41,115 nt of DNA, taken from contig NZ_PVWJ01000037.1 of NCBI RefSeq assembly GCF_003003775.1, positions 1 through 41,115 of the forward strand. Reading direction: 5' to 3'. Both the position numbers and the translations under genes were made by a program. Source of the stretch: Merismopedia glauca CCAP 1448/3. Its GTDB lineage: Bacteria; Cyanobacteriota; Cyanobacteriia; Cyanobacteriales; CCAP-1448. Below are positions 5,319 through 27,787 of this stretch, one piece after another; position 1 is the first letter of the stretch; each line of letters starts with the position of its first letter. Below the pieces are notes generated by a model. That model did no database searches, was not told the origin of the DNA, and was given only the letters and a program-made list of their open reading frames with translations.

Positions 5319-6128
5319 TTAAAATGCTCTAGTAACGTTGACTGCTACATTATTGAACCCACTTACAGAACTTCCTCTAGAAGGAAAAGTTTGAGGACTG
5401 ATTAACACCAGCTTTACTGCATATACCCCAGGTCCTCCCTTAACAATAGCTTCGGTAATTTTAAACTTGATAGATTGACCTGGAGAGATGGGTAAAACCT
5501 CTTTGAAAGTATCTGTGCGCGTCGTCACATTCGTAACAACTAACCTCAATTGAGAAGTAGAAACTCTAGTCAAGGGTGCAGTGTAGGCATAATCAAAACT
5601 TAACACGACCGAAGACAGTCTCTTAATATCTTCTTGACTGAGATTGGGGGAAAAAGCAGAAGTACCGCTACAGGTTACCGGTGGAGGAACAATGGCTACA
5701 CTAGAACCACATAAAACCCCAAAATTCTCCTTAAAAAAGAAGTTGAAAACCCCTGTATTGATGTCTCCTTCAGGTCTACCAACACCACCATTAACATACA
5801 CAAAGTTTTCCACTAATACAGGTAAAACTACTGTAGAGTTGGTGGGGCTAAACGGAGCCTTTAAAAAATTGCTAAATCGGTCGGAAATTTGCTTACCAGA
5901 ACTATCTGGAAGAGGGTCGTTTGGACTAGCTTGAGCTATTAAATTGCCTGAATTTATAGCGTTAGAGCCATTTTCCCGATCGCTTGAGGCTAAAGTTGCA
6001 GCACTGGTGCTATAGATACTAGCTAAACAAATAAATCCAGCAAGTGTCATATTCCAGGAGCAATTTCGGAAATTAAGCATAAATCCTCGGTTCCGTATTT
6101 GATTTAAAACAGCAAAGACTTTCCTCAC
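5319..6128 (-). CDS. exported protein of unknown function
   Basis: The 269-residue product has an N-terminal export signal. The hydrophobic core is MTLAGFICLASIYSTSA (about residues 27-43), followed by a probable Ala-X-Ala cleavage region. An alternative ATG at 6080 (MLNFRNCSW) would give a more typical signal peptide, so the true start may be 6080. The mature part is rich in beta-type Val/Thr/Ser patterns, has two Cys residues (GVLCGS and PVTCSG) that could form a disulphide, and no membrane segments. I recognise no family. It diverges from dacB with about 150 bp between likely starts; both products are exported, but no functional link is shown. Confidence 0.7.
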   Translation of the reverse strand: MRKVFAVLNQIRNRGFMLNFRNCSWNMTLAGFICLASIYSTSAATLASSDRENGSNAINSGNLIAQASPNDPLPDSSGKQISDRFSNFLKAPFSPTNSTVVLPVLVENFVYVNGGVGRPEGDINTGVFNFFFKENFGVLCGSSVAIVPPPVTCSGTSAFSPNLSQEDIKRLSSVVLSFDYAYTAPLTRVSTSQLRLVVTNVTTRTDTFKEVLPISPGQSIKFKITEAIVKGGPGVYAVKLVLISPQTFPSRGSSVSGFNNVAVNVTRAF

Positions 6129-6277
6129 TACGATTGTGTAGGCTAGCTTTGTCCTGCGTGTTATCCGCTAGAGAACTACAGGTCTTTAATTGCACATTCC
6201 GCAATATTGCATGGCAAATTAGAATCAACAGACGATATGCTACGATCCACTTCCAATGCCATAGCTTCCCCGATCTT

Positions 6278-7774
6278 ATGAATTTTTATCATCTAATTGT
6301 GAACTTAAAGCCAATTTACCTGCCAATTCTGTTATTAACAGCGCAAATATCTTTAATTAAACCTGCTAGCGCTCAAAATTCAGTTCAAGCTACACCTGTA
6401 GATAATTCTAGTCCTCGTATTTGTCCAGCCAATTTACCCAGTGAAATTCAAAAGATTACCACTCGTCCCTTATTAGCCAAAGCCAGGTGGGGAATCGCAG
6501 TGGAAACCTTATCTGGTGGAAAAACTTTATATAGTCAGGAACGGGATAAATACTTTATTCCTGCTTCCAATGTGAAACTTCTCACTAGTGCTGCGGCGTT
6601 AACTCGTTTAGGATCTGATTTTCGGATTCGGACTTCTATTTATGCTACAGATTCACCAAAACAATCGCTATTATTAGTTGGTAGAGGCGATCCTAGTTTT
6701 AGTAACCCGCAGTTGAGGGAATTAGTCAGACAGCTACAAGCCAAAAACTACACGCAAATTGAAGAACTGAAGGTCAGCGATCGCTATTTTCAAGGTACTA
6801 CAACTCATCCTACTTGGGAATGGGAAGACGTACAATACTATTACGGCACGATAGTTAATAGTCTAATTCTCAATCAAAATGCCGTAGGATTGACTATATA
6901 TCCGCAAAAAGTTGGTAATCCCTTAAATTATGTCTGGAGCGATCCTTTAGCTGTCTGGGGAAGACCTGTAGCCAACGAAAGCCTCACCTCTGAGGCAAAT
7001 TCAGCAGCTAATCTCCAATTAATTGGAATTCCTGGCAAATCTCTCCTCAAAATTCAAGGACAATTACCTGTAGGAAGTCAACCAGAGTCTCAATCTCTAG
7101 CAGTTATCGATCCTGCCAAGTATTTTACAGATAGTTTTCAGGTAGCATTGTTATCTGTCGGAATTAAGGTTAAAGCGGTCAAATTCCTTTCCACAACGGA
7201 AGCGCCAAACCCAGAAACAGAAGTAGCATTTGTCGAATCTCCCCCATTAACTGACTTGTTAATGGAAGTGAACCAAAATAGCAATAATCTGTATTCAGAG
7301 GTACTATTGCGGACATTAGGAGCTATAAAACAGCCAAAACAAGATTATGATGTATCTGTTGTCGGTTTATCAACCATTAAAGACACCCTCAAACAGATTG
7401 GAGTCGATCCCCAAAGCTATATAATTGTCGATGGTTCTGGATTATCTCGCCACAATTTAGTTAGTCCCGATAGCTTGATTCAAACCCTGAAAGCGATGGA
7501 TAAATCGCCTTATGCTAGTGTTTACCGCCAATCTTTACCCGCATCTGGAATGAATGGAACTTTAAAAAACAGATTTGGGAATGCAGTCAACCTCATTCAA
7601 GCTAAAACAGGAACTATGACTGGGGTAGTTGCCTTATCTGGTTATATCACCCCAACAGATTATGAACCATTAGTTTTCAGCATTATAGTCAACCAATCAG
7701 ACCAAAAAGCGATCGCCACTCGTCAATCGATAGATGAGGTGGTAATTTTATTAACTAGGTTGCGAAGATGCTAA
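6278..7774 (+). CDS. dacB: D-alanyl-D-alanine carboxypeptidase/endopeptidase (PBP4 type, S13 family)
   Basis: DacB trims peptidoglycan stem peptides in the periplasm. I chose the ATG at 6278 rather than upstream in-frame codons because it starts a clear signal peptide (hydrophobic residues 13-27, cleavage near ASA-QN at about 32); the region before it reads as non-coding. The 498-residue product carries the three penicillin-binding motifs: SxxK as Ser97-Asn-Val-Lys100, SxN in NQNSNNLYSEV, and KTG in QAKTGTMTG. A long insert between the first and second motifs is typical of PBP4-class enzymes. All catalytic residues are present. It ends 49 bp before the toxin-antitoxin pair. Confidence 0.93.
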   Translation: MNFYHLIVNLKPIYLPILLLTAQISLIKPASAQNSVQATPVDNSSPRICPANLPSEIQKITTRPLLAKARWGIAVETLSGGKTLYSQERDKYFIPASNVKLLTSAAALTRLGSDFRIRTSIYATDSPKQSLLLVGRGDPSFSNPQLRELVRQLQAKNYTQIEELKVSDRYFQGTTTHPTWEWEDVQYYYGTIVNSLILNQNAVGLTIYPQKVGNPLNYVWSDPLAVWGRPVANESLTSEANSAANLQLIGIPGKSLLKIQGQLPVGSQPESQSLAVIDPAKYFTDSFQVALLSVGIKVKAVKFLSTTEAPNPETEVAFVESPPLTDLLMEVNQNSNNLYSEVLLRTLGAIKQPKQDYDVSVVGLSTIKDTLKQIGVDPQSYIIVDGSGLSRHNLVSPDSLIQTLKAMDKSPYASVYRQSLPASGMNGTLKNRFGNAVNLIQAKTGTMTGVVALSGYITPTDYEPLVFSIIVNQSDQKAIATRQSIDEVVILLTRLRRC

Positions 7775-19055: not shown

Positions 19056-19092
19056 TATTGGGTAGGATGCAATCCAATTAGCCCCATTGAGC

Positions 19093-22000
19093 ATGACGAT
19101 AGAATCAGCTAATTTTCAGTTTCTACAACTCCATGACGTGCAGCTAGTGCGTTTGGGTGCTTTGGCGGAACGGTATTTTCTAGACGATCCCTGTACCTGT
19201 TCTATTAAATTGCGGCAGTTTGGAGAACTTTTAGCCCAGTTGAGTGCGGCAAAAGTGGGGCTGTTTGTCTCGACTGATGAAGCCCAAGTGGATTTGTTGC
19301 GTCGGTTGAAGGTAGAAAGGGTGATTTCGCAAGAAGTTGCCGAACTATTTCATCAGATTCGGACGATTGGGAATAAGGCAACTCACAGGTATAGCGGAGA
19401 TAGATCGGAAGCGCTAACATCGCTGAAGATGGCTCGGCAATTGGGAATCTGGTTTCATCGCAGCTTTAGCGATCGCAATTTTACACCCGCACCTTTCGTC
19501 CCTCCAGCCAAGCCAGCCGATGCCACGGCGGAACTGACGCAGGAATTGGCAAGGTTGCAACAGGTTTTGGCTGAAAGTCGCACAGAGGCAGAGAAAGCAA
19601 AGCAGGCGGCAGCAAAACGGGAGAAGGCGGCGTTAAATGCCGAAGAAAAAGCCGCCAAGGAAGCTGAAGAACGGGCGTTGTGGGAGCAGTTGGCGCAGGA
19701 GTCGGAACGGGCGAGATTTGCTCTGGCGGCGCAATTGGCAGAGCTTCAGGCAGATTCTCAACGGTTGCCGGAGCGGGAAACGGTGAAAATTATTGATTTG
19801 GCAGATCGGGCGGCATCTTTTATCGATTTGGATGAATACGAGACGCGATCGCTGATCGATCGCCAGTTGCAAGAGGCAGGATGGCTGGCGGATAGTCGGA
19901 ATTTGCGCTATGGATTGGGAACTAGACCCATTAAAGGGCAAAATATGGCGATCGCGGAGTGGAAAACTGCCGATGGGATTGCCGATTATGCCTTGTTTGT
20001 GGGGATGAGGTGCGTTGCCACGATTGAAGCTAAACGGCGGCGCAAGAATGTTTCGGCGGCGATCGACCAAGCGGAACGGTATGCCAAGGGATTTAGAGCG
20101 GCTAAGGGCTTTGAGGCGGGGAATTGGGGGGAATTTTGGGTTCCCTTCGTCTTCGCGACTAACGGACGATCCTACCTGAAGCAGCTAGAGACGGAAAGCG
20201 GGATTTGGTTTCGGGATGTCCGCAAAGCTACTAACCGCCGTCGCGCTTTGACGGGTTGGGTTACTCCAGAGGGGTTAATCGCCCAATTGGGGATGGATGC
20301 GGATGCGGCTAATGAGTTCTTGAAGCAGCAACCCTGTCGGTTTGGCTTTTCCTTGCGTCCGTATCAGGAAAAAGCGATCGCCAAAATTGAAGAAAATATC
20401 GCCGCAGATTGTCGGGAAATGCTGGTAGCTATGGCGACGGGAACTGGGAAGACGAAACTGGCGATCGCCTTGCTATATCGCTTGCTAGCGGCTAAACGCT
20501 TCCGCAGAATCTGTTTTGTGGTTGATCGCAGCGCCTTGGGAATTCAGTCGATGGGGGAGTTTCGCACGACTAAGGTGGTTGGCGCTAAGGCTTTCGGGGA
20601 TATCTTCGGCTTGCAGGGGTTAGAAGATATCGTCCCGGAATCGGAAACTAAGGTGCATATTTGCACGATTCAGGGATTAGTCAAACGGATTCTCTATGCT
20701 AAGGAACCTGGTAGCGTGCCTCCGGTGGATCGATACGATTTGCTATTGATTGATGAATGTCATCGAGGCTATCTCTTAGATCGCGAAATGTCCGATTCTG
20801 AATTGAGTTTTCGCTCTCAGGATGATTATGTTTCTAAATATCGCCGCGTTTTAGAGCATTTTGATGCGGTGAAGATCGGTTTAACGGCAACTCCGGCTTT
20901 ACATACCGTCCAGATTTTCGGGGAGCCAATCTATACCTATAGCTATCGGGAAGCGGTGGTAGATGGCTTTTTAATCGACTGCGAACCTCCGGTGCAGATT
21001 ACTACGGCTTTGAGTCAAGGAGGGATTGAGTTTGCTTCTGGAAGTGAAATGGAGGTATTGAATGCAGCGACGGGGGCGATCGATCTGGTTCATGCGCCTG
21101 ACGATCTGCGCTTTGATGTGGAGGATTTTAATAAAAAGGTGATTACGGTGGCGTTTAATGCTGCTGTAGCGCGGGAATTAGCAAAACATATCGACCCCAG
21201 TTTGCCTGGAAAAACCTTGATTTTTGCTGCCAATGATGCCCATGCCGATATCGTGGTAGAAGAGGTGAAACAGGCAATGGGAGACTATTACGGGGAGATT
21301 GAGGATGCGGCGGTGCGGAAAATTACTGGAAGTGTCGATCGCCCGTCGGATCTGATTCGTTCTTATCGTAACGATGCGATGCCGAAAATTGCTGTAACAG
21401 TCGATTTGCTGACTACCGGAATTGACGTTCCCAGTATTACAAATTTAGTCTTTTTGCGGCGGGTGAATAGTCGGATTCTCTACGAACAGATGTTAGGTAG
21501 GGCAACTCGCAGGTGCGACGAGATTGGGAAAGAAACCTTTCGGATTTTTGATGCGGTGGATTTATATGGCAAGTTGCAGCATTTAACGGATATGAAACCG
21601 ATTGTGGTGAATCCTAAGATTAGTTTAGAGCAGTTGTTTGATGAATTCGTACAGGTTAGGGAAGATAGCCACCGTCAAGAGATTCGCGACCAAATATTAG
21701 TTAAATTAGGTCGTCAGATGAAACAAATGGCAGAACGAGCCAGAGAAATGTATAAATCCGAGGTGGGGGAGCCTCCCGAAGCGACCTGGGAGCGGTTTAA
21801 AACCGGATCTCTGCCAGAATTGACGGGCTGGGTGCGGGAGAAATCTGGCATCGGCAGGATTTTGGATTGGAACCCCGAAGCTGGAGGAGGAACCATTTTA
21901 CCCATTTCTTATCATGCCGATGAGGTAATTGCCGTGACGCGGGGCTATGGAACGGGACAAAAACCGGATGACTTTTTAGAGGATTTTAATACATATATTC

Positions 22001-22467
22001 GGGATAATGTCAATCAATTAGCCGCCTTAACGGTGGTATTACAGCGACCTCGCGAACTGACCCGCGCTCAACTGCGAGAATTGCGGTTGGAGTTGGATAA
22101 GATGGGTTATTCGGAAGCTAATTTGCGGCAGGCTTGGCAGGATGCCAAGAATGAAGATATTGCGGCTTCCATTGTCGGTTTTATCCGTCAAGCGGCTTTG
22201 GGCGATCCTTTAATTCCCTATGGGGAAAGGGTGAAAGCTGCCATGAAACGCATCCTCAGTCGGCAAGCTTGGAGCGCACCTCAGCGCAAATGGTTGCAGC
22301 GCATTGGGGAACAGGTGGCGCGAGAGTTTATTGTAGATCGGGAGGCGATCGATAAAGAGCCTTTCCAGGCGGATGGAGGATTCAAGCGGCTCGATCGCAT
22401 TTTTGACGGACAACTAGAAGCGATTCTAGGAGATATAAACGAGGAACTGTGGCAAGAGAAAGCTTAA
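19093..22467 (+). CDS. hsdR: type I restriction enzyme, R subunit (EcoEI-like)
   Basis: HsdR is the ATP-driven translocase and nuclease of type I restriction complexes. I chose the ATG at 19093; a TTG two codons upstream is possible. In the 1124-residue product, the first 125 residues resemble the DUF4145 domain, then comes a charged coiled coil (about 145-225), the nuclease domain with Asp300 and Glu314-Ala-Lys316 (numbered from the TTG), the helicase with Walker A ATGTGKT at 450-456, DECH at 556-559 and GLTATPA, and a C-terminal R-subunit domain. The frame is intact. The gene overlaps hsdM by 19 bp. Codons look richer in GC than those of flanking genes, in keeping with acquired DNA. Without a working HsdM it should not cut DNA. 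Confidence 0.95.
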   Translation: MTIESANFQFLQLHDVQLVRLGALAERYFLDDPCTCSIKLRQFGELLAQLSAAKVGLFVSTDEAQVDLLRRLKVERVISQEVAELFHQIRTIGNKATHRYSGDRSEALTSLKMARQLGIWFHRSFSDRNFTPAPFVPPAKPADATAELTQELARLQQVLAESRTEAEKAKQAAAKREKAALNAEEKAAKEAEERALWEQLAQESERARFALAAQLAELQADSQRLPERETVKIIDLADRAASFIDLDEYETRSLIDRQLQEAGWLADSRNLRYGLGTRPIKGQNMAIAEWKTADGIADYALFVGMRCVATIEAKRRRKNVSAAIDQAERYAKGFRAAKGFEAGNWGEFWVPFVFATNGRSYLKQLETESGIWFRDVRKATNRRRALTGWVTPEGLIAQLGMDADAANEFLKQQPCRFGFSLRPYQEKAIAKIEENIAADCREMLVAMATGTGKTKLAIALLYRLLAAKRFRRICFVVDRSALGIQSMGEFRTTKVVGAKAFGDIFGLQGLEDIVPESETKVHICTIQGLVKRILYAKEPGSVPPVDRYDLLLIDECHRGYLLDREMSDSELSFRSQDDYVSKYRRVLEHFDAVKIGLTATPALHTVQIFGEPIYTYSYREAVVDGFLIDCEPPVQITTALSQGGIEFASGSEMEVLNAATGAIDLVHAPDDLRFDVEDFNKKVITVAFNAAVARELAKHIDPSLPGKTLIFAANDAHADIVVEEVKQAMGDYYGEIEDAAVRKITGSVDRPSDLIRSYRNDAMPKIAVTVDLLTTGIDVPSITNLVFLRRVNSRILYEQMLGRATRRCDEIGKETFRIFDAVDLYGKLQHLTDMKPIVVNPKISLEQLFDEFVQVREDSHRQEIRDQILVKLGRQMKQMAERAREMYKSEVGEPPEATWERFKTGSLPELTGWVREKSGIGRILDWNPEAGGGTILPISYHADEVIAVTRGYGTGQKPDDFLEDFNTYIRDNVNQLAALTVVLQRPRELTRAQLRELRLELDKMGYSEANLRQAWQDAKNEDIAASIVGFIRQAALGDPLIPYGERVKAAMKRILSRQAWSAPQRKWLQRIGEQVAREFIVDREAIDKEPFQADGGFKRLDRIFDGQLEAILGDINEELWQEKA

Positions 22468-23574
22468 TTAGTACTAGTAGCGTCACTCGCGATATTGTCG
22501 CTAAGTTGTGGAATTTGTGCCATATATTGCGCGATGACGGGATTACTTATAACGAATACGTCACCGAGTTGACTTATTTGCTGTTTTTGAAGATGCTGGC
22601 AGAAACAGGACGGGAAAGCCGCTTGGCGGAGGAATATCGCTGGGAGGAGTTGGATAAGCGGGAAGGATTGGAGCAATTAGATTTTTATCGCCGCTTGCTG
22701 CTAGATTTGGGCAATGCAAAGCTGGTAATCGATAAGGGGGTGCTGGCGATTTTTGGCGACGCACAAACGAAGTTGCGGAAGCCGACGAATTTGAAAGCGC
22801 TGACGGATGCCATAGATCGCTTGGACTGGTTTTCGGCGCGGGAAGAGGGTTTGGGCAATTTGTATGAGGGGTTGCTGGAGAAGAATGCAGCCGAGAAGAA
22901 ATCCGGTGCGGGGCAATATTTTACGCCGCGTCCGTTAATCGATTGCATTGTCAGGTTAATTAAGCCGCAAGCTGGGGAAACGATTCAAGATCCGGCGGCG
23001 GGTACGGGGGGTTTCTTAGTAGCAGCAGATCGATATATTAAGGATTTAACGAACGATTTCTATACTCTGAAGCCAGAAGAGGCGAAGTTTCAGCGTTTTG
23101 AGGCTTATAAGGGCTTGGAATTGGTTCCCGATACCCATCGCCTCTGTTTGATGAATCTGCTGTTGCACGGGATTGAATGCAATGTGGAGTCTGGGGATAG
23201 TTTGTCGCCGGATGGGGAAAGTTTGGGTAAAGCGGATGTAATTTTAACTAATCCACCGTTTGGAACGAAAAAAGGCGGCGGCAGACCGACAAGGGCTGAT
23301 TTTTCGGTGACTGCGGAAACTTCTAACAAGCAATTGGCGTTTGTCGAGCATATTTATCGCGCTTTGAAGCCTGGGGGAAGGGCGGCGGTTTCGCTGCTTT
23401 AGTCGGGAGCAAATAGCGGCGCGTAACGACAATTTAGATATTGCTTGGCTGAGGGATACAAGTAACGATCCTGAAGATGAATTAAGCGAACCCGAAGAAA
23501 TTGCAGGGGCGATTTCTACTCATTTGGGTAACGCCTTACGGGAAATTGAGGCGCTGATGGAGGAGTTAGGATAA
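22449..23574 (+). pseudogene. hsdM: type I DNA methyltransferase subunit, internally deleted and frameshifted
   Basis: HsdM would methylate adenine and is required for both modification and restriction. It starts at a GTG inside the end of hsdR (19-bp overlap). The first 317 codons are normal: the N-terminal helical domain, the AdoMet motif DPAAGTGGF (181-189) and catalytic NPPF (268-271). After LKPGGRAAV the frame hits a TAG at 23400-23402. One base on, a second frame continues as SREQIAARNDNLDIAWLR to a TAA at 23572-23574, which is the usual C-terminal end of the family. About 100 residues that should lie between are absent, so the gene lost an internal segment not divisible by three. A functional product is unlikely. 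Confidence 0.9.
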
Positions 23575-23599: not shown

Positions 23600-23821
23600 A
23601 TGATGACTTTTCAAGAAATAGTTGATTCTATCGATCGCTTGTCAACTGAAGAACGTGACAGCTTATTTGAATTAATCCACCAGCGACGTATTCAAGAACA
23701 AGAAGCAGAAATATTAGCTAGTCGTCAAGAGTTAAAAGAAGCGATCGCTAATGGAACAGCTAAAAGGGGTGGCGTTCGCGAACTAATTGCCGAACTACTA
23801 GGAAATGATGATGATAGCTAA
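23600..23821 (+). CDS. small antitoxin-like protein paired with Uma2
   Basis: The 73-residue product is helical and highly charged (FQEIVDSIDRLSTEERDSLF, then a Glu-rich stretch and VRELIAELLG). It looks like the small partners often encoded before Uma2 or RelE-type genes in cyanobacteria, but I cannot name a family. AAGGAG 6 bases upstream supports the ATG at 23600. The gene overlaps the Uma2 gene by 17 bp, the same overlap as in the toxin-antitoxin pair at 7.8-8.4 kb. Together they form a two-gene cassette between the broken hsdM and hsdS. Confidence 0.75.
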   Translation: MMTFQEIVDSIDRLSTEERDSLFELIHQRRIQEQEAEILASRQELKEAIANGTAKRGGVRELIAELLGNDDDS

Positions 23822-24401
23822 CCTCAAACACCACTCAATGACCCCAGCAGAGTATCTAACCTGGGAAGCCGAACAACCTCTGAAATACGAATACTTTCAG
23901 GGTGAAGTTTATGCCATGACGGGTGGAACTCTACCCCATAATGACATTGCCGTGAACTTAACCAGCGCTTTGAGAGGTGCGCTGAGGGGAACTGGTTGTA
24001 AGGTGCGAATGGCTGATGCTAAGGTCAAAATTTCACAGCAAGGACCTTATTTCTATCCTGACATTGTAGTCAGTTGCGACGATCGCGATCGCACGGCGAT
24101 GGATGCGATTTGCTATCCCGTTTTAATTGTTGAGGTTTTATCGCCTGGTACGGCTGGTTTTGACAGGGGAGACAAGTTTAAGTTTTATCGACGCATACCG
24201 ACACTGCGAGAATACCTGTTGATTGATGCTGAGAAAGTGGCGATCGATTGTTACCGCAAGGGAAATTCAAGAAGGTGGGAACTGATAGCATATCCAGAAG
24301 ATGCAGCAGATCCAGAAAATCCAGTTTTGGAGTTGGAAAGCATTAATTTTAGTTGTTCTTTGGAGATGGTTTATGAAGAAGTAGAAGTAAGGGGAGAGTA
24401 A
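23805..24401 (+). CDS. Uma2-family putative endonuclease (DUF820)
   Basis: The 198-residue product belongs to the Uma2 family, a PD-(D/E)XK-type nuclease fold greatly expanded in cyanobacteria; their role is not settled. Seen in order: the opening MTPAEYLTWE, KYEYFQGEVYAMTGGT, the acidic YPDIVVSCDD, VLIVEVLSPGTAGFDRGDKF with the expected Glu, and LREYLLIDAEKVAIDCYR. Length and motifs are complete. Three ATG codons in a row start the frame; the first is used here. Its TAA stop falls in a GAGTAAA heptamer repeat. It is embedded in the restriction locus, which suggests insertion between hsdM and hsdS. Confidence 0.92.
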   Translation: MMMIANLKHHSMTPAEYLTWEAEQPLKYEYFQGEVYAMTGGTLPHNDIAVNLTSALRGALRGTGCKVRMADAKVKISQQGPYFYPDIVVSCDDRDRTAMDAICYPVLIVEVLSPGTAGFDRGDKFKFYRRIPTLREYLLIDAEKVAIDCYRKGNSRRWELIAYPEDAADPENPVLELESINFSCSLEMVYEEVEVRGE

Positions 24402-24416
24402 AGAGTAAAGAGTGAA
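24396..24416. repeat. GAGTAAA heptamer repeat at the Uma2 stop
   Basis: Three units (GAGTAAA, GAGTAAA, GAGTGAA) start inside the last codons of the Uma2 gene, supply its TAA and end exactly where hsdM-tail homology begins. It marks the right border of the inserted cassette. Confidence 0.75.
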
Positions 24417-24494
24417 GATGCGATCGCTATTGCAACTCATTTGCGAAGTGCTTTGGCATAGATTGAAGTTTTATGGGAAGAGGTAGAAGCGTGA
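24417..24494 (+). pseudogene. C-terminal tail of a second, diverged hsdM
   Basis: 25 codons read DAIAIATHLRSALA, a TAG, then IEVLWEEVEA and a TGA. This matches the end of the hsdM upstream (EIAGAISTHLGNALREIEALMEELG) residue by residue but differs strongly in DNA, so it is not a recent copy. Its TGA overlaps the GTG start of hsdS as GTGA, the usual tight junction of hsdM and hsdS. It is therefore most likely the remains of the hsdM that originally belonged to this hsdS. Confidence 0.7.
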
Positions 24495-26029
24495 GTGAAT
24501 TGCCGAAGGGATGGTGCTGGGTAAATATTGAAGATATTTCCGAAAGAATTCACTATGGCTATACTGCAAGTTCTAAAAATATTCCAACAGATACTAAATT
24601 ACTTAGAATTACTGACATACAAGACAATTCAGTAAATTGGGAAGCAGTTCCTTTTTGCGAAATAAGTGAAGTAGAAAGACAAAAATATTTATTAACGAAG
24701 GGCGATTTGGTTTTTGCTAGAACTGGCGCAACTGTAGGGAAAAGTTTTTTGATAGAAGGTGACATACCAGAGACTGTTTTTGCTTCTTACTTGATAAGAA
24801 TTATTCTATTCAAATCAATCTTTGAAAAGTTTGTATATAATTTTTTCCGCTCTGAATCCTACTGGGAACAAATTCATGAAAAGCAGGTAGGAACTGGGCA
24901 ACCAAATATAAATTCTACTGTTTTATCTCAAATAAAAATTCCTCTTCCTCCTCTCAACGAACAGCGCCGCATTGTTGCTAAGCTGGACAGTCTGTTAGGT
25001 CGCACCCGTAAGGCTCGCGAGGAGTTGGAGAAGATTGGGAAGTTGTGCGATCGCTACAAACAAGCCGTCTTATCTGCTGCCTGTTCTGGTAAACTTACTG
25101 CTGATTGGAGAGAGCAAAATACTGATATTGAAAATACATCAGAATTGATGGAAAGAATCAGTATAAGTCGAAGGAAACAGTGGGAAGAGATACAAATTCA
25201 AAATAGTAAAGTGTTGGGTAAAACATTGCAAGGTGAAAGCTGGAAGACAAAATATAAACCCTCTGAAGTAATTAATACCCATGAATTAATTACTTTACCG
25301 CATAATTGGAGTTGGGCATCTGTAGACTCAATTTCTACAAAGGTAGTGGATGGAGTTCATAAGAAACCCAATTATGTTGAGACTGGAATACCATTCGTAA
25401 CAGTTAAAAACTTATCTAGGGGGGATGGTATAAGCTTTGATGATATCAAATATATCTCTGTAGAAGATCATGAAGATTTTGTTAAACGTGCCAATCCAGA
25501 GAGAGGAGATATATTAATCACCAAAGATGGAACTCTAGGAATCACAAAGGTTATAAGAACTAGTCAAGTGTTTAGCATATTTGTTTCTGTTGCTTTAGTG
25601 AAACCTGTCTGTTACGAAATGAGTGATTACCTAGAACTTGCATTTTCATCACCATTACTCCAAAAGCAGATGGTTGGTACTGGATCTGGTTTAATGCATA
25701 TTCACCTAATAGATTTAAGGCGCTATAGTTTGCCTATTCCCCCACTTACAGAACAAAAAGAAATTGTCCGCCGAGTTGAAAAACTCTTCAAAGCGATAGA
25801 CACAATCCAGCAAGAAACCCAAAAAGCCTTCAAACTCTGCGACAGACTCGAACAATCTACCCTCGCCAAAGCCTTCCGAGGCGAACTCGTCCCCCAAGAT
25901 CCCGACGACGAACCCGCATCCGTCTTGCTAGAACGCATCGCCGCCGAAAAACAGCAAGCAGCCGCATCTAGCCCAAAATCTCGCACCAAAACCCCAAAAA
26001 CCAAACAACTCACCCTCGACGATATCTAA
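24491..26029 (+). CDS. hsdS: type I restriction enzyme specificity subunit
   Basis: HsdS chooses the DNA target of the complex. I place the start at GTG 24491 (MSELPKGWCWV, the common HsdS opening), not at the in-frame ATG 24473, because the GTGA overlap with an hsdM tail is preserved. The 512-residue product has two target-recognition domains (about 1-160 and 255-420), each followed by a conserved helical spacer: PLPPLNEQRRIVAKLDSLL near 165 and PIPPLTEQKEIVRRVEKLF near 415. The first domain is AT-rich and the C-terminal quarter GC-richer, the mosaic look typical of hsdS. It appears intact but has no complete partner HsdM here. Confidence 0.93.
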   Translation: MSELPKGWCWVNIEDISERIHYGYTASSKNIPTDTKLLRITDIQDNSVNWEAVPFCEISEVERQKYLLTKGDLVFARTGATVGKSFLIEGDIPETVFASYLIRIILFKSIFEKFVYNFFRSESYWEQIHEKQVGTGQPNINSTVLSQIKIPLPPLNEQRRIVAKLDSLLGRTRKAREELEKIGKLCDRYKQAVLSAACSGKLTADWREQNTDIENTSELMERISISRRKQWEEIQIQNSKVLGKTLQGESWKTKYKPSEVINTHELITLPHNWSWASVDSISTKVVDGVHKKPNYVETGIPFVTVKNLSRGDGISFDDIKYISVEDHEDFVKRANPERGDILITKDGTLGITKVIRTSQVFSIFVSVALVKPVCYEMSDYLELAFSSPLLQKQMVGTGSGLMHIHLIDLRRYSLPIPPLTEQKEIVRRVEKLFKAIDTIQQETQKAFKLCDRLEQSTLAKAFRGELVPQDPDDEPASVLLERIAAEKQQAAASSPKSRTKTPKTKQLTLDDI

Positions 26030-27643: not shown

Positions 27644-27701
27644 GGGGCGGGTTTAGCAAGGAAATTTATACAAAGCTATCGACATTAAACAAAACCCGCC
27701 C
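27644..27701. repeat. 58-bp element with terminal inverted repeats, copy 1
   Basis: The ends GGGCGGGTTT and AAACCCGCCC are inverted repeats. A relative of the same 58-bp length lies at 39750-39807 in the opposite orientation, sharing CGGGTTTAGCA and CAAACAAAACCCGC-type ends with a diverged middle. Confidence 0.7.
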
Positions 27702-27787
27702 TCTTCACATCAATTTCAATTTTACAAATCTATATTAAACCAAACCTGTCCTCTTCACATGGATTTCATTTTACAGATATATATTAA
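27687..27787. repeat. diverged tandem repeat of about 51 bp
   Basis: Two adjacent copies share AAAC-AAACC-G-CCTCTTCACAT and a following ATTTCA-TTTTACA...TATATTAA. They start at 27687 and 27737, and the first overlaps the end of the 58-bp element. After them come a motif (ATTTAAATCATATATTTGCT, 27798-27817) and TTCCTTC heptamers to about 27844, an order also seen at 39830-39942. Confidence 0.7.

Follow-up and report, generated by a model that had tools for sequence, protein, structure and literature searches.

Phages and islands integrate at the 3′ ends of genes and restore them, and integron cassette arrays are made up of tandem small cassettes that often encode toxin-antitoxin pairs. The pneumococcal tvr and R-linked ORFs are presumably further cases of accessory genes inside type I restriction-modification loci, besides prrC. 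According to the account cited here, prrC sits inside the ecoprrI type I locus (PMC12707154). For EcoKI, a stop/start overlap between hsdM and hsdS as well as translational coupling have been reported, and in the structural model described in the same source the C-terminal helical region of HsdM lies along the HsdS helices (PMC3510504). A toxin-antitoxin pair of Microcystis is described as being fenced by 152-bp direct repeats (PMC7935541), and Uma2, abundant in cyanobacteria, has been put forward as a likely solo toxin (PMC2701414). As far as these sources are drawn on here, accessory genes inside type I loci, a cyanobacterial toxin-antitoxin pair between direct repeats and Uma2 as a likely toxin are already in print. 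Among the titles and abstract openings returned by searches of one open-licence library, none described cassettes that carry hsdM 3′ ends, which is no proof of absence.

Results

An additional hsdM 3′ end precedes hsdS

The window, by which we mean the entire contig of 41,115 bases, contains a type I restriction-modification operon with hsdR, hsdM and hsdS on one strand. All features of the operon given below lie on the plus strand unless noted otherwise. hsdR (19087–22467) encodes 1126 aa of the PRK11448 family (NF008521, 1540.6 bits versus a cut-off of 729). It is followed by the body of hsdM (22449–23402), the remainder of the current hsdM 3′ end (23401–23574) and an inserted module of two genes: a small ORF of 72 aa (23603–23821) and a gene for a Uma2-family putative nuclease of 198 aa (23805–24401; PF05685, E = 1.1e-35). 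hsdS (24491–26029, 512 aa) starts with GTG, and an in-frame ATG is found at 24473. Directly in front of hsdS lies a sequence that we read as a displaced, decayed hsdM 3′ end and subsequently call the echo (24417–24494, with an in-frame TAG at 24459–24461). Translation of 24402–24494 gives RVKSEDAIAIATHLRSALA, stop, IEVLWEEVEA, stop, in which the echo itself is read as EDAIAIATHLRSALA, stop, IEVLWEEVEA, stop; the 87 nt with which the current hsdM 3′ end closes (from 23488) are its counterpart. Further downstream, at 27678–27772, a 45-nt sequence is repeated directly after a spacer of 50 nt (82% identity), between a ferredoxin-like gene and a Rieske oxygenase gene on the minus strand.

A first-pass annotation of this DNA had proposed a second hsdM 3′ end before hsdS, and this is borne out: aligned with the hsdM tail of the window, the echo scores 53, a value reached by none of 200 shuffles of the same pre-hsdS DNA (maximum 30). 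The proposed stop/start overlap is present as well, the TGA of the echo (24492–24494) overlapping the GTG of hsdS (24491–24493) within GTGA. The expected match to HsdM profiles was obtained with a 27-residue 3′-end profile, at E = 0.021 in the genome and with one TAG inside, and is marginal when taken alone. A putative Shine-Dalgarno-like sequence for hsdS, GGAAGAGG (24476–24483, read by eye), would lie inside the echo. Like EcoKI, the window thus has a stop/start overlap of the hsdM-hsdS type (PMC3510504, as far as cited here); unlike in EcoKI, the overlap partner is a leftover 3′ end, and hsdM proper stops 917 nt upstream of the hsdS start. The uninterrupted operon L089 (loci and genomes of the comparison are given by our own L and G numbers) has nearly the same hsdM-hsdS junction (AAGCGTGAGTGAATTACCGAAAG) as the window, so that the echo-hsdS junction looks like an ordinary hsdM-hsdS junction.

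The echo had further been said to match the hsdM tail in protein without a close match in DNA, which holds, as only 21/34 nucleotides are identical. Over the same 34 nt the echo shares 26/34 with the corresponding scrap of G199 and at best 22/34 with the 120 hsdM 3′ ends compared, while the hsdM tails of the window and G199 are identical at 29/34 positions. Read by eye, the echoes of the window and G199 have 22 identical nucleotides across the GTGA junction. These identities form the pattern that would be expected from one displacement before the two loci parted, with a later exchange of the insert, 34 nt being a short basis for it.

The hsdM gene of the window is broken

Compared with the intact hsdM genes of G199 and G058, which encode 485 and 495 aa, the window gene lacks 332 nt and carries a frameshift (junction at about 23383–23391), and its ORF stops at 23402 after 317 aa; the remainder of the 3′ end is in another frame than the body. 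The breakpoints of this deletion are G-rich, similar sequences. The first-pass annotation missed the break, and the hsdM tail that it used is in a frame other than that of the body. hsdR and hsdS remain open frames despite the deletion. Since the 332-nt loss leaves the window without a complete HsdM, the type I enzyme is probably inactive.

Extra hsdM tails between hsdM and hsdS in other genomes

G199 has an intact hsdM that ends in a tail of its own; after it come four small ORFs, a second tail and hsdS. This second tail reads NRAIAPNHLRNALAEIGAYSEKMEGDEPQEERAA, stop, and overlaps hsdS by the same GTGA as in the window; the gap ORFs are toxin-antitoxin-like, with a PIN domain in one of the two that were scanned. 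The gap of G114 (2.6 kb) contains a DUF4351 gene, a tail, a frame matching ParD/ParE, a tail, a small ORF with a PIN-domain gene, and a third tail before hsdS. The arrangement in G195 is an ORF, a tail, two ORFs like the last pair of G114, another tail and the apparent start of a broken hsdS. Each of the extra tails, three in G114 and two in G195, stands after a different cassette of its locus, and the G195 tail beside hsdS is close to hsdS-touching tails of uninterrupted operons (48/57 to G319, 49/60 to G276).

A shuffle test on 33 gapped loci of all phyla, which took in neither the window nor G195 and for which 22 shorter loci were dropped in favour of longer versions, accepted an echo in four (G114, G199, G343 and G348); the close relatives L079 and G058 gave none in this test. 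Against its own hsdM tail the G199 echo is weak, with 3/100 and 1/200 shuffles as good. Short echoes are likely in G348 (score 44, shuffle maximum 31) and in G343 (score 54, shuffle maximum 38), where the match lies mid-gap and nothing adjoins hsdS. Candidates in L074, L095 and L201 (scores 45, 35 and 36) exceeded all of 100 shuffles and were not counted, being 1 to 2 points above the maximum with 33 loci tested; the L074 match, moreover, falls within a small antitoxin-like ORF. Also not counted was a candidate in L082 (score 38; 1/100 shuffles as good).

Searching 388 genomes of the order with the 27-residue profile yielded 40 matches at E <= 0.001. Twenty-six are long frames (over 350 aa, classed by frame length only), seven are broken hsdM genes (the window, G015, G379, G167, G138, G215 and, by frame length, G342), five are echoes (three in G114, two in G195) and two are hsdM 3′ ends directly before Uma2, namely in G293, with no hsdM body seen, and in G009, with the last ~90 codons only. 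The window echo with its E of 0.021 falls below this listing, and the G199 echo is absent even at E <= 1. Across the phylum, 12 of 339 genomes had a match; eight of these belong to the order set as well, and none of the matches adds a further stand-alone tail.

hsdM and hsdS are separated by at least 150 nt in 19/31 genomes of the order (18/30 without G342, which is measured from an internal stop) and in 4/8 named cyanobacterial loci, compared to 9/63 loci of other phyla. These counts refer to loci with a downstream hsdS found, from 34 order, 10 named cyanobacterial and 70 other-phyla loci examined; the 34 are part of 38 order genomes with an hsdM match, the window genome and three for which no locus was retrieved having been left out, and G195 is outside the tally as its hsdS was unrecognised. 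The gap of L072 (G173), after position 6782, spans 4.8 kb between hsdM and hsdS and holds PIN, nucleotidyltransferase-like and UPF0175 genes and an IS110 transposase. At L035 (G064), after position 5472, a ParD start passes, after ~20 codons, into an apparent tail end just before hsdS, which looks like the outcome of a cassette deletion.

Tails and the genes downstream of them

Tails were compared from a conserved anchor to the stop. Between-genome pairs that share downstream DNA have a mean tail score of 50.4 (36 pairs) versus 34.4 (585 pairs), a difference reached in 0/5000 label shuffles; the permutation used 36 of 44 tails, those of the larger subfamily, and excluded the eight of the window's subfamily. 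Common descent of entire loci (G320, G110, G273) inflates this result, and the telling cases are therefore those in which tail and body disagree. The hsdM tail of G114 agrees with G015 at 44/45 positions and with G135, its closest hsdM-body relative, at 35/57, and G114 and G015 share the downstream cassette (97.2% over 500 nt). The tail of G064 matches echo 1 of G114 (69/75) better than G135 (47/75), which is closest by hsdM body, and the ParD start behind the G064 tail is the one behind this echo (94.6% over 92 nt). For G195, the values are 50/51 to its own echo 1 and 43/57 to G135. Over the 60 nt before the anchor G114 has 50/60 in common with G135 and 46/60 with G015, a small difference; the low upstream match to the echoes is no evidence, because the echoes are cut short there. 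The tail of G360 is close to echo 1 of G114 (63/78), yet no ParD start occurs in the 40 nt after it. Among the loci compared, only the tails of G199 and G058 match the window hsdM tail with its small ORF, so that the import of tails is argued from G114, G064 and G195. The comparison across genomes thus demonstrates extra tails and, at the level of sequence, mismatches between tail and body, and it appears that tails can travel with the gene downstream.

The inserted module

Uma2 is above its family cut-off. Its 72-aa partner had no family above its cut-off in the family search and is antitoxin-like by size and position only. Toxin-antitoxin-type matches in other loci comprise ParD/ParE, PIN, HicA, HepT-like and nucleotidyltransferase families. 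Among 376 genomes, with up to eight candidates scored per genome, the nearest relatives of the window Uma2 are those of G293 (73%), G009 (70%), G031 (70%) and G058 (71%). Three of these four nearest by E-value follow hsdM or a bare hsdM tail: the Uma2 genes of G293 and G009 stand behind a bare tail, that of G058 behind hsdM, a small ORF and another Uma2. None of the other 26 Uma2 loci (G031 and 25 more; 29 loci examined besides the window) has this position. At L237 (G009), in a reverse-complemented piece at about 5919–6200, the last ~90 hsdM codons are directly followed by Uma2; this hsdM end lies about 150 nt downstream of a tRNA-Met gene, and the 10-kb piece contains no other part of hsdM.

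Relatives of HsdM and HsdS

The first-pass annotation favoured a hybrid operon, in which hsdR-hsdM and hsdS would stem from two different type I systems and the echo would be the end of the second hsdM. We regard such an origin, with one recombination joining the two, as unlikely. The difference in DNA between echo and hsdM tail (21/34) would fit it, as would the relatives of HsdS: as a full-length protein HsdS has its nearest relative in G173 and the next in G245, whose HsdM proteins belong to another subfamily, and its first recognition domain is closest to that of G245 (50%), its second to that of G173 (73% identity to TRD2 of L072). Type I recognition domains are, however, described as being exchanged (PMC3874165), so that the likeness of these domains to G173 and G245 says little about origin. 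The HsdS C-terminal conserved region (residues 430–512) points, together with the echo, to the lineage of the window hsdM; by score it is closest to L079 (64% identity) and G199 (67%), and the window HsdM is 86% identical to G058, 86% to G199 and 80% to L079, a Limnothrix locus. The central conserved region (residues 145–262) splits: G185 and L089 lead by score with G199 fifth, which does not favour G199, whereas by identity G199 is at the top among the 12 listed (61% over 84 residues). When HsdS alone was used to scan named genomes, no relatives came up, and these genomes were surveyed by HsdM alignment instead. A single joining, moreover, would not yield the several tandem tails with which the layout recurs. 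The annotation had also named an alternative, an insertion that split the operon followed by renewal of one hsdM tail. This fits better, because this split is seen in other genomes too, where the inserts differ and the tails match their cassette partners.

Borders of the displaced ends

A HIP1 octamer, GCGATCGC, is found at the left border of the echo (24420–24427, unstranded). When the first hsdM-like base, judged by eye, is taken as the left border in the window, G199, G293, G114 (three) and G195 (two), the octamer starts 0–14 nt before seven of the eight; the third border of G114 lacks it. Since G114 and G195 share one border sequence, this amounts to four independent HIP1 borders. Positions within 15 nt of an octamer make up 3–7% of these loci, and 11/30 hsdM-attached 3′ ends contain one anyway; the link between HIP1 and these borders is suggestive only. 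According to the source cited, evidence ties the octamer to site-specific recombination and none ties it to homologous recombination (PMC4390886, as far as drawn on here).

Both this association and the position of the octamer at the four independent borders would be in line with site-specific insertion in which a recombinase acts in trans on the hsdM 3′ end and the element supplies the replacement end, and such an event would leave the same replacement-end signature. Speaking against it, the family search found no recombinase among the two ORFs of the window insert, and a Pfam scan of 20 of the 74 gap ORFs of other loci gave one IS110 transposase (G173) and one sub-threshold transposase-nuclease match, in the DUF4351 protein of G114. 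As tail lengths vary too, we consider site-specific insertion quite unlikely. Very improbable is a purely local origin, in which slippage or unequal crossing-over around an inserted gene duplicated the hsdM 3′ end, no tail was imported and decay accounts for all differences: the near identity of the G195 tail and echo 1 would suit it, as the match continues past the stop (93% over 114 nt), but the tails of G114 and G064 resemble cassette-linked tails of other genomes more than those of their hsdM-body relative G135, and Uma2-linked tails occur with an hsdM fragment only (G009) or with no hsdM seen (G293).

Discussion

We consider it probable that the echo is the old hsdM 3′ end, left beside hsdS when an accessory module with an hsdM 3′ end of its own came in between. 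The echo would be what remains of the final ~25 codons of an earlier hsdM that continued directly into the present hsdS. A module consisting of the small antitoxin-like ORF and the Uma2 gene would have entered at the hsdM 3′ end and brought its own hsdM 3′ end, so that hsdM kept a complete end, now that of the module, while the displaced one stayed in front of hsdS. We infer that the present hsdM tail of the window is the incoming one and that recombination takes place between the resident hsdM 3′ end and a unit made up of an hsdM 3′ end plus at least one small gene; the exchange would proceed by homologous recombination within this end, with the other border at the HIP1 octamer. Repeated arrivals would stack such units, the oldest end always remaining beside hsdS, and the loss of 332 nt from the window hsdM would have come later. 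The old end holds the ribosome-binding-site-like GGAAGAGG and the stop/start overlap with hsdS, which may be why this piece was kept. This order of events, like the reason for the retention, is what the arrangement of the loci suggests.

More tentatively, the cases may reflect a general habit of this cyanobacterial order, a possibility that we hold with some reserve. Toxin-antitoxin and nuclease genes might travel in units, each headed by a copied hsdM 3′ end, that pile up between hsdM and hsdS; the hsdM 3′ end would act as the attachment repeat. Each arrival would rewrite the C-terminal helix of HsdM while both hsd genes stay translatable, and the operon, with no need for its own recombinase, would serve as a platform for cassettes.

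Such units share features with phage and island integration, in that a new gene end comes with the insert while the displaced one is found at the far side; they differ in the lack of a recombinase found in the window insert, in their size of one or a few genes and in being stackable. They resemble integron arrays as tandem, small and often toxin-antitoxin cassettes, but the repeat between them is a piece of coding sequence, and no integron integrase was among the families found for the two window ORFs and the 20 of 74 gap ORFs scanned. With prrC in ecoprrI the window has in common that stress or abortive-infection genes lie within an hsd locus (PMC12707154); unlike in the window, the accounts of type I loci compared, to the extent used here, mention no copy of a host gene end with the accessory gene. 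The Microcystis pair is likewise a cyanobacterial toxin-antitoxin pair flanked by direct repeats; in contrast to the hsdM echo, its first repeat is described as starting 14 bp beyond the neighbouring gene's stop codon and not in that gene's 3′ end (PMC7935541).

The separation of hsdM and hsdS is frequent in these cyanobacteria compared to loci of other phyla. If modules bring along the end of the gene they enter, this would account for the entry of defence and addiction genes into a co-transcribed operon that stays unbroken. The proposal further predicts that HsdM C-termini, which lie along HsdS in the EcoKI model, are swapped in modules, and this could be tested in laboratory cyanobacteria.
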